Below, in pieces: positions 55,581 through 60,875 of a stretch of DNA of 64,000 bases. The stretch spans positions 1 to 64,000 of the forward strand of contig CAMCVW010000001.1 in NCBI GenBank assembly GCA_945881915.1. Reading direction: 5' to 3'. Source of the stretch: Thermoflexus hugenholtzii JAD2 (GTDB taxonomy: Bacteria > Chloroflexota > Chloroflexia > Chloroflexales > Roseiflexaceae). The translations under genes were made by a program, and so were the position numbers. Positions within the stretch are counted from its first letter, which is position 1, and each line of letters opens with the position of its first letter. Under the pieces are notes generated by a model, which was given only the letters and a program-made list of their open reading frames with translations, was not told the DNA's origin and ran no database searches.

Positions 55581-55605
55581 ACACATGACACAGAGAGGAG
55601 TCAAA

Positions 55606-56640
55606 ATGAATGCACCCATCCCTGTCTTTGACGGGCACAACGACACCCTGCTTCGGTTGATTGCAGACCCGAAGTCTGATGACAACTTTTTCGAGAGTCC
55701 GCATGGTCATATCGATATGGCACGTGCCCGCGCCGGCGGTTTGACCGGGGGCTTTTTTGCTGTCTATATTCCTGGGGATCCGACGGCTTCAGTCGTCACA
55801 GACCGAGACAGCCTGCCTCCCGCACTCGATCAGAACTACTCTTTGCAGATGGCTATGAAGATGTCAGCAAAATTGTTTGAAATTGAGCGTGAATCTCGAG
55901 GGGACTTCCGTGTGGCACGCACGGTAGCAGATATTCGGGCAGCCAGAGCAGCGGGTGCGATGAGCGGTATTTTACACTTCGAAGGTGCCGAGGCAATCGA
56001 TAAAAACTTCGAAGCGCTTGAAGTATTTTATCAAGCTGGACTGCGCTCACTCGGTCCTGTCTGGAGTCGGCCGACGATTTTTGCAGAGGGCGTCCCATTC
56101 CGCCACCATGCGAGCCCCGACACCGGACCTGGGTTGACTGAGGCAGGTGTGGAGTTAATCAAGGCGTGTAATCAAAAGAAAATCATGATTGATTTATCAC
56201 ACATGAACGAAAAAGGATTCTGGGATGTCGCACGGGTCAGCAGTCAACCGCTGGTTGCAACACATTCTAATGTATGGAATTTGAGCCAATCAACGCGCAA
56301 CTTAACGGATAAACAGCTCGATGCAATCAAAGATTCTGACGGGATGGTCGGATTGAATTTTGCAGTGGTATTCCTGCGTCAAGACGGCAAACACGATGCC
56401 GACACCCCGCTTTCGACAATGGTCGATCACATCGATTATCTCGTCAAACGAATCGGAATTGATCGTGTCGGCTTAGGCTCAGACTTCGATGGTGCAACGA
56501 TTCCCAGTGCAATTGGGACAGTTGCAGGATTACCGCACCTCGTTGAGGCATTACGTGCTCGTGGGTACGGAGAATCCGAGTTGACCAAACTCTGCTTCGA
56601 AAACTGGATGCGCGTGTTGACGGCAACGTGGGGTGCCTAA
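55606..56640 (+). CDS. M19-family membrane-dipeptidase-like peptidase
   Basis: This 344-residue zinc dipeptidase of the renal-dipeptidase family has the first metal pair in FDGHNDTLLRL. The metal-bridging Glu lies in LHFEGAEAI. Histidines occur in DLSHMN and VATHSN, and the Asp in LGSDFDG. AGAGGAGTC precedes ATG 55606. Family members cleave dipeptides, including D-amino acid-containing ones. It is monocistronic with its own promoter and terminator. Confidence 0.93.
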   Translation: MNAPIPVFDGHNDTLLRLIADPKSDDNFFESPHGHIDMARARAGGLTGGFFAVYIPGDPTASVVTDRDSLPPALDQNYSLQMAMKMSAKLFEIERESRGDFRVARTVADIRAARAAGAMSGILHFEGAEAIDKNFEALEVFYQAGLRSLGPVWSRPTIFAEGVPFRHHASPDTGPGLTEAGVELIKACNQKKIMIDLSHMNEKGFWDVARVSSQPLVATHSNVWNLSQSTRNLTDKQLDAIKDSDGMVGLNFAVVFLRQDGKHDADTPLSTMVDHIDYLVKRIGIDRVGLGSDFDGATIPSAIGTVAGLPHLVEALRARGYGESELTKLCFENWMRVLTATWGA

Positions 56641-59391: not shown

Positions 59392-59748
59392 ATGTTTTTG
59401 CTGCATAGCAAGCTTCTGGGAACGTCGACTATCGTCACGATTGCCCTGCTCTTCGTCTCAATCTATTATTGGATTCGTTCATTGCCGGTCGGAAGTATGG
59501 CGCAGATACTCCACAGAATAGTGGGGCTACTTTTCGTGAGTGCTGCAGTTCTCGGTGGAGGTGGTTCAGAAGCACGCGATGTTGCGCCCCTCCACATCGT
59601 CTATGCGAGCTTATGGCTGTTGGTGTGGCTATTTTTATGGAAAGGGGTCAGCAGTTTCATTCCAGCCAAGGATCGGCCACGCTTCTGGGTAGTCACATCG
59701 ATTATTTTGATTGTCCTTCTGCATAGAATCGACGTGACGGGACAGTGA
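59392..59748 (+). CDS. Small membrane protein, unknown function
   Basis: This 118-residue protein has about four hydrophobic segments. It has a GGGGSEARD loop after the second and a C-terminal helix ending HRIDVTGQ. It starts 6 bases after nth and is probably co-transcribed. No family motif is recognised. Confidence 0.7.
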   Translation: MFLLHSKLLGTSTIVTIALLFVSIYYWIRSLPVGSMAQILHRIVGLLFVSAAVLGGGGSEARDVAPLHIVYASLWLLVWLFLWKGVSSFIPAKDRPRFWVVTSIILIVLLHRIDVTGQ

Positions 59749-59755
59749 GACTTGG

Positions 59756-59785
59756 TTGACATGCGCGGAAGTGTCATGGTACTGT
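59756..59785 (+). promoter_or_regulatory. Promoter of rsgA
   Basis: TTGACA at 59756-59761 and TACTGT at 59780-59785 are 18 bases apart, with TG just upstream of the -10 (extended -10). Transcription would begin near 59792, ahead of the leader frame at 59818. Confidence 0.6.
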
Positions 59786-59817
59786 ACAGAACATAACAAT
59801 GAATGAAGGAGCGCGCG

Positions 59818-59868
59818 ATGTATTTAAGCAATTCGTCACAAATTGTCGCCTCCTGCCCGCATTCCTAA
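59818..59868 (+). CDS. Candidate leader peptide of rsgA
   Basis: A 16-codon frame, MYLSNSSQIVASCPHS, has a strong GAAGGAG site 7 bases upstream. Its stop lies 18 bases before a hairpin-terminator pair. Five of sixteen residues are Ser. Translation is well supported by the ribosome-binding site, but the role is inferred. Confidence 0.5.
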   Translation: MYLSNSSQIVASCPHS

Positions 59869-59886
59869 GCGACGCTTTTGAATGCC

Positions 59887-59945
59887 ACCGCAGGTTTTTT
59901 CCTGCGGTCGTACGGTACCGCTCGCTTTCGCAGAGTGGTTTTTTT
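59887..59945 (+). promoter_or_regulatory. Leader terminator and alternative hairpins upstream of rsgA
   Basis: Hairpin one: ACCGCAGG (59887-59894) with CCTGCGGT (59901-59908), 8 bp. Terminator: ACCGCTC (59917-59923) with GAGTGGT (59933-59939), then a run of T to 59945. A 5-bp alternative pairs GCGGT of strand two with ACCGC of strand three, which would block the terminator. The rsgA ATG is 33 bases downstream. Confidence 0.68.
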
Positions 59946-59978
59946 GTTTTCTACACACCAGAGGGAATACATCAACGC

Positions 59979-60875
59979 ATGATTGGACGCATTTTACGTG
60001 CCATGAGCGGATTCTATTGGGTCGAAACCGCCGATGGCGTACTCGAGTGCCGCCTCCGCGGACGACTCAAGCGCATCGAACAACAGAGTGAAATTGCCGT
60101 CATCGGGGACCTCGTCGAGGTAGTTGTGGTTAGTCCTGGTCAAGGTGCCATCGAAGCAGTGCAGGAACGTACGACACGGTTATCGCGTGTGGCAGTGGGC
60201 TCACGTGGTCACAAAGAAGATTTGATTGTGGCAAATGTAGATCTTGTCATTGTTGTGGTGGCACTCGCCAATCCCGAATTCCACCCGCGTATGCTCGATC
60301 GCTACCTGCTTATCTGTGCGCACAATAACCTCGAAGCACGAATTGTCGCGAGCAAAGCAGATCTCGTGAGTGCCGATTACGCAGCCCATGCAATGGCACC
60401 GTATGCTCAAATTGGCTACGAAACGCAGACGATGAGCATACACAGTGGCGAAGGGCTGGATGTGATCAAGGCTTGGCTGCCCGGTCGCATCAGTGTGGTG
60501 ACAGGTAAATCCGGTGTAGGGAAGTCATCGCTCCTCAACGCCATTAATCCTGCATTGGCGTTATCAGTTGGCGCTGTTTCGACGACCTTGAACAAAGGTC
60601 GGCATACCACGACGATGGCACAGTTGATTCCCCTGGGGAACGGCGGATATGTAGCTGATACTCCAGGTATCCGCGAGATAGCGTTATGGAACATCCCACA
60701 TGACCAACTCGAGTACGGATTCCGGGAATTTGAACCATACCTCGGTGAATGCCGCTTCAGTGATTGCGTGCACAAAAACGAACCCGACTGTGCGATTCGC
60801 ACAGCTGTAGCAACGGGAAGCATCTCGCAGGTACGCTACGAGAGCTATATCCGCCTCCTCGCAGGAGAAGAATGA
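59979..60875 (+). CDS. rsgA: Ribosome small-subunit GTPase A
   Basis: This 298-residue circularly permuted GTPase checks 30S assembly. It has an OB-fold N-terminus (MIGRILRAMSGFYWVETADGV). The GTPase motifs are in permuted order: G4-like SKAD, then G1 GKSGVGKSS, then G3 DTPG. The C-terminal zinc motif is CRFSDCVHKNEPDC. ATG 59979 matches the family start; a longer frame to 59799 would run through the leader peptide and terminator. It is possibly controlled by the leader. GNAT genes follow after 1 and 17 bases. Confidence 0.94.
   Translation: MIGRILRAMSGFYWVETADGVLECRLRGRLKRIEQQSEIAVIGDLVEVVVVSPGQGAIEAVQERTTRLSRVAVGSRGHKEDLIVANVDLVIVVVALANPEFHPRMLDRYLLICAHNNLEARIVASKADLVSADYAAHAMAPYAQIGYETQTMSIHSGEGLDVIKAWLPGRISVVTGKSGVGKSSLLNAINPALALSVGAVSTTLNKGRHTTTMAQLIPLGNGGYVADTPGIREIALWNIPHDQLEYGFREFEPYLGECRFSDCVHKNEPDCAIRTAVATGSISQVRYESYIRLLAGEE

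Follow-up and report, generated by a model that had tools for sequence, protein, structure and literature searches.

The window, by which we mean the whole 64,000-nucleotide stretch of DNA that was analyzed, comes from a genome of 3.09 Mb in 63 contigs. Near its 3' end lies rsgA, which encodes a protein of 298 amino acids with matches to the Pfam families RsgA_GTPase (5.1e-53) and RsgA_N (3.4e-11). RsgA acts late in the assembly of the 30S subunit, where it checks helix 44 as well as the sites for tRNA and mRNA (PMC6912228). On the 5' side, rsgA is preceded by an HhH-GPD endonuclease III-like gene and a 118-amino-acid frame, and on the 3' side it is followed by two GNAT acetyltransferase genes. 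The 118-amino-acid frame (59392-59748) has no match in Pfam and ends immediately 5' of the promoter described below; in several relatives, a frame end that resembles its end is also found 5' of the leader. The reading frame of rsgA is free of stop codons through the entire leader, back to an ATG at 59799 (59799-60875). We consider this upstream in-frame ATG to be a coincidence and rejected it as the start of rsgA: homology begins only at the ATG at 59979. The features of the leader and the gene are as follows.

59756-59785, + strand: promoter, read from the sequence, with a -35 box TTGACA (59756-59761), an 18-nt spacer, and a -10-like box TACTGT (59780-59785)
59806-59811, + strand: Shine-Dalgarno (SD) sequence AAGGAG, the core of strand 1, read from the sequence
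59818-59868, + strand: leader ORF of 16 codons, read from the sequence, starting with ATG, encoding MYLSNSSQIVASCPHS, with the stop codon TAA at 59866-59868
59807-59854, + strand: hairpin A (strands 1:2), AGGAG/GCG/CGAU (59807-59819) with AUUG/CGC/CUCCU (59842-59854), from the minimum free energy (MFE) fold
59859-59885, + strand: hairpin B, GCAUUC..AAGC with GCUU..GAAUGC, from MFE folds, with the stop codon inside its 5' arm; it would cap the 2:3 helix
59852-59894, + strand: predicted alternative helix 2:3, CCUGC (59852-59856) with GCAGG (59890-59894)
59887-59908, + strand: hairpin C (strands 3:4), from MFE folds, ACCGCAGG (59887-59894) with CCTGCGGT (59901-59908), where C2 is CCUGCGGU
59904-59921, + strand: alternative helix 4:5 (putative antiterminator), GCGGU (59904-59908) with ACCGC (59917-59921)
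59917-59945, + strand: hairpin D (strands 5:6), a predicted intrinsic terminator from the MFE fold, with the stem at 59917-59939 and T7 at 59939-59945
59979-60875, + strand: rsgA, starting with ATG at 59979

The original prediction placed a promoter, a frame of 16 codons that has a strong SD, a first hairpin, and a terminator before rsgA, and all of these can be found in the sequence. A crude scan for sigma-70 promoters did not list the leader promoter because its -10 box is weak. The T7 tract is only 34 nt from the start of rsgA, which leaves no room for a further promoter, so any rsgA transcript that begins at an upstream promoter has to cross the terminator. The RNA from 59792 to 59950 is predicted to fold stably: its energy is -53.2 kcal/mol (z = -3.67, or about -3.4 to -3.7), and none of 200 shuffled sequences reached as low a value.

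The second strand of the first hairpin (GCGGU, 59904-59908) can, as had been proposed, form pairs with the terminator's first strand (ACCGC, 59917-59921). The comparative evidence below supports the attenuator geometry that was suggested on this basis, but the four-strand model was incomplete, as it missed hairpin A, hairpin B, and the 2:3 helix. We rejected a four-strand model in which hairpin C alone is gated by the ribosome: a ribosome at the stop codon would end about 6 nt before C1, so translation could be coupled to the terminator only through additional strands (hairpin A and 2:3). In hairpin A of the window, the SD and the AU of the start codon are paired with codons 9-13 and hidden. 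Because this hairpin cannot form until codons 9-13 have been transcribed, an initiating ribosome would have a brief time to bind first.

The leader is carried by a group of uncultured freshwater Chloroflexota that form one genus within the Roseiflexaceae. The relatives' sequences are metagenome assemblies and represent about four independent lineages. The full order (promoter, SD, ORF, hairpin A, hairpin B with the stop codon, hairpin C, hairpin D, rsgA) recurs in G006, G008, G003, and the contig 98 copy of G009. In G001, the promoter, ORF, and hairpin B are present and then the contig ends, and contig 225 of G009 contains the 3' part of the leader. (In G009, two differing versions of the rsgA start, each with a leader and each roughly 70% identical to the query, sit on separate contigs [L005 and L038], which would reflect either a mixture of strains or a duplication.) The promoter is conserved as TTGACA-17/18-TA(N3)T in G006, G008, G001, G003, G007, and G009a. 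An ORF of 16-18 codons lies in the same position in five relatives, and all six leaders with the ORF have an AAGG- or AGGA-type SD 5' of its ATG. The peptides are MYLSNSSQIVASCPHS, MHTAHATIICTPCLQS, MHIAHTTVIHTPFMQS, MHTAHAKVICTPCLQS, MNTSVSAVVRVLLCLHR, and MHHASNYANTVLPRGLLN; their residues drift even among near relatives, while the length of the frame stays at 16-18 codons. Folding z-scores range from -3.0 to -6.1 in six sequences (G007 excluded). In G007, z is only -1.8. This genome (locus L004, on the reverse strand of the same contig as L032) is a natural loss variant: it keeps the promoter and hairpins C and D and lacks an ORF of 16-18 codons, and instead GGGAG is followed directly by an ATG whose frame continues into rsgA.

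We compared the pairing strands across these leaders and consider hairpins A-D to be strongly supported, 4:5 moderately, and 2:3 modestly. For hairpin A, the SD strands pair best with the anti-SD strand of their own lineage. The cognate set was matched by 6 of 720 permutations, which is because three of the members are near-identical; among the independent lineages alone, the cognate set was the best of 24 permutations. Hairpin B is rebuilt with different sequence in the relatives. The original prediction called for a search for covariation of the four strands in relatives; there, C, D, and 4:5 are kept, with C2 invariant and wobbles in C1 and D2. Specifically, C2 (CCUGCGGU) is identical in 7 of 7 leaders and C1 varies by G.U wobbles (GCAGG, GCGGG, and GUAGG). 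The stem and U-tract of hairpin D are conserved in the seven leaders of the genus, with an altered inner stem. GCGG of C2 lies opposite CCGC of D1 in all seven, and D2 has wobbles (GUGG) in four. In each of the seven, the C2:D1 and D1:D2 pairings are mutually exclusive, and the 4:5 hairpin has a predicted energy of -7 to -11 kcal/mol. The invariance of C2 and D1 is the pattern that would be expected if each had two partners, which is an argument from the pattern rather than a test.

For the 2:3 helix, with hairpin B as its cap, folding predicts that it forms in 5 of 5 complete leaders once the polymerase is just past C1 and C2 is yet to be made, with C1 paired to the 3' end of the leader ORF. 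The pairs are CCUGC:GCAGG in the window, ACUCCC:GGGAGU in both G006 and G008, GCCUGC:GCAGGC in G003, and GGUCUGC:GUAGGCC in G009a. The duplex had p values of 0.03-0.38 for the individual leaders, and the cognate strands were matched by 39 of 720 permutations. When we compared the pairing energy to that of shuffled versions of strand 2, the combined p was 0.009 for all six, and two alternative sets of independent lineages gave 0.013 and 0.07; the number of pairs did not differ significantly from that with shuffled strand 2.

Given these pairings, we think it somewhat more likely than not that rsgA is under the cis control of this leader through ribosome-mediated transcription attenuation and that a ribosome lingering at the start of the leader ORF gives the ON state. 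The six strands would form 1:2, 3:4, and 5:6 (the terminator) in the OFF state, and 2:3 (capped by hairpin B) and 4:5 in the ON state. Strand 1 would comprise the SD and the start codon, without regulatory codons, and strand 2 the region of codons 9-13. If no ribosome is present, then hairpins A, C, and D would form and transcription would halt. If a ribosome runs quickly to the stop codon, it would cover strand 2, so that C and D form and transcription again halts. A ribosome that lingers on the SD, the start codon, or the first three to four codons would instead cover strand 1; strand 2 would then pair with 3 and strand 4 with 5, the terminator would fail, and rsgA would be transcribed. With the SD and start region serving as strand 1, entry into translation is the event that is likely to be sensed. 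The signal would be slow entry (owing to a slow or immature 30S subunit, to delayed joining of the subunits, or to drugs that trap ribosomes at the start codon) rather than the lack of a single amino acid, and the outcome would be more RsgA and the maturation of 30S subunits.

The closest parallel in strand layout is the his operon attenuator of enterobacteria, which has six strands (A-F) with strand 1 over a run of His codons. Both have a leader ORF, the position of the ribosome decides the outcome, and three OFF hairpins (1:2, 3:4, and 5:6) are set against two ON helices (2:3 and 4:5). In the rsgA leader, by contrast, the SD and start codon make up strand 1 and no regulatory codons are seen; the target gene, phylum, and RNA sequence differ as well. 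If the signal is the one we infer, then this would be a new form of ribosome-mediated attenuation.

To ask how the position of the ribosome would affect folding, we represented the ribosome as a block of about 30 nt and computed what the ON state costs in free energy while the terminator is still incomplete; the footprints and energies are approximate. The costs below (kcal/mol) are given for no ribosome, a ribosome at the start (P = 1), and a ribosome at the stop codon.

Window: 6.2 absent, 2.7 start, 6.2 stop
G006: 5.3 absent, 0.1 start, 6.2 stop
G008: 3.3 absent, 0.2 start, 2.0 stop
G003: 4.0 absent, 3.1 start, 8.5 stop
G009a: 0.2 absent, 0.1 start, 5.2 stop

In this constrained folding, the ON state was cheapest, or tied for cheapest, with the ribosome at the start in 4 of 5 leaders, and it was usually at least 3 kcal/mol dearer if the ribosome was absent or at the stop codon. 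With codon 5 in the P site, the cost climbs again in the window, G006, and G008. The lowest cost for G003 is at codon 9 (0.7) and not at the start, and in G009a the ON state is cheap at every position up to codon 7. Even when the ribosome sits at the start, ON remains less favorable than OFF by 2.7 kcal/mol in the window and by 3.1 in G003, so kinetic trapping or pausing of RNA polymerase would be needed. Overall, the modeled energies favor a signal from the start region in most leaders, although not uniformly. Together with the identity of strand 1 as SD and start and the absence of any common residue or codon among codons 2-6, they fit the suggestion of the original prediction that the rate of translation initiation could be the signal.

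The energies also bear on a simpler explanation, that hairpins C and D are a fixed, unregulated partial terminator that lowers the expression of rsgA and ends transcripts from upstream, and that the frame has no regulatory role. Once the terminator has been transcribed, OFF is the thermodynamic default everywhere except in G009a with the ribosome at the start. A run of U5-6 comes after hairpin C too in G003 and G009b, as in tandem terminators, and G007 retains C and D without the ORF. We think this explanation is unlikely, as it does not account for the length of the ORF, the SD, the placement of the stop codon in hairpin B, or a co-varying hairpin A that is kept while the peptide changes.

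Conversely, the ORF might act through its sequence, if stalling at particular residues, or a specific pair of drug and peptide, were to free strand 2. The geometry is that of amino-acid and drug attenuators, and there is a His codon near the start in G006, G008, G001, and G009a. But His is missing from codons 2-6 in the window and G003, none of the amino acids or codons in this stretch is common to all of the leaders, and the changes within the G006/G008/G001 clade are mostly non-synonymous, so codon- or peptide-specific attenuation seems quite improbable. Similarly, we did not find the regulatory codons or common residue of an attenuator for amino acid biosynthesis, and rsgA is not a biosynthetic gene.

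With the opposite sign, readthrough would follow from a lack of translation, and a shortage of ribosomes would raise rsgA directly. As homeostasis this would be the simplest logic, and in G009a the ON and OFF states cost nearly the same without a ribosome. In the other four leaders, though, OFF is favored by 3.3-6.2 kcal/mol without a ribosome before the terminator is made, and after it is made, OFF is favored by 3.0-9.5 kcal/mol in 5 of 5 leaders, which makes this reading very doubtful. Least plausible of all, and highly improbable in our view, is that the leader is a binding target of a protein or ligand (RsgA itself or a ribosomal protein), similar to the autoregulation of ribosomal proteins: the target is a ribosome factor and strand 2 of the window contains CCUCCU, like the 3' end of 16S rRNA, but the leader matches no Rfam family, the loops vary, and CCUCCU is absent from G003 and G009a, where strand 2 tracks the SD of its own genome. 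We rejected protein binding by 16S mimicry on the grounds that CCUCCU is not conserved. The search with Rfam covariance models, at both gathering and relaxed thresholds, gave no match to a leader, riboswitch, or T-box and no relevant weak match. A T-box was also rejected (GGUACCGC occurs in the window) because the UGGN bulge is missing and the motif is not conserved in relatives.

For attenuation by a ribosome lingering at the start, which we prefer, each step has a precedent in another system. In the vmlR leader of Bacillus subtilis, ribosomes held on a tiny upstream ORF (uORF) block an anti-antiterminator, and induction of this attenuator is seen with drugs that hold ribosomes at initiation as well as in a mutant defective in ribosome assembly (PMC9226507). 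Like the rsgA leader, it combines a short ORF, an anti-antiterminator hairpin, a hairpin-capped antiterminator, and an intrinsic terminator (PMC9226507). The rsgA leader is not of the vmlR type: its ORF has 16-18 codons instead of three, its target is RsgA instead of an ABCF resistance factor, vmlR has fewer strands, and we saw no sequence relation between the two. A second case is the toiL uORF of E. coli topAI, where the downstream gene is turned on when tetracycline arrests ribosomes on the start codon (PMC12121999). There too, a ribosome held at the start codon of a uORF alters downstream RNA structure and turns expression on, but toiL works via a ribosome-binding site and Rho, without an intrinsic terminator, and its target is a toxin-antitoxin system. 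In Streptomyces coelicolor, tetracycline induces a paralog of RsgA via WblC (PMC7157823). In this WblC/WhiB7 chain, translation stress likewise raises an rsgA-family gene and a uORF attenuator lies upstream, but the effect is in trans through a transcription factor, whereas the rsgA attenuator lies directly before the gene. The original prediction held that no leader had been described for rsgA, and we likewise found none, nor any cis-acting control of this gene, in the literature searched, in which subscription journals were thinly covered.

As a tentative extension, the feedback loop might be direct: 30S subunits that bind the leader but are slow to start, being immature or poorly joined, would hold strand 1, rsgA would be turned on, and RsgA would mature those same subunits, with no need for regulatory codons or a protein sensor. 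How ribosome-assembly factors are matched to the state of the ribosome is poorly known. If the proposal is true, then the maturation of ribosomes is tuned by how well translation starts, and ribosome biogenesis would be added as a target, and the Chloroflexota as a phylum, to the range of ribosome-mediated attenuation. A leader that senses entry into translation rather than a codon would also allow the feedback to be tested with a simple reporter.

To see how widely the leader occurs, we used a covariance model of it (R1), in which only the C and D stems are modeled as paired. Within the genus, strong matches lie only 5' of rsgA or where a contig stops at a point at which rsgA would come next. 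Elsewhere in these genomes, we found weak terminator-like pieces, such as one in G000:C32 that is 3' of a glycosyltransferase-like ORF, and we therefore rejected a second leader elsewhere in the genome. Across 15 other genomes of the family, nothing rose above noise. We also searched 457 kb of the same genome, under loose criteria, for a mini-ORF with an SD, followed by a terminator and a gene. This gave 10 matches, two of which have an ATG mini-ORF: the rsgA leader and one within the gene at 55585-56640. The scarcity of such matches, the folding z-score, and the recurrence at rsgA in relatives indicate that the leader is not a chance arrangement. Outside the genus, we saw no such leader at rsgA, which appears to lie directly after another small ORF. 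Judged from this distribution in the genomes examined, the attenuator appears to have arisen in the genus. rsgA itself seems to have been relocated to a new place in this genus. In other Chloroflexales (L007, L012, L016, and others), the small ORF nearly overlaps rsgA and contains a conserved IILERDGSL-like stretch.
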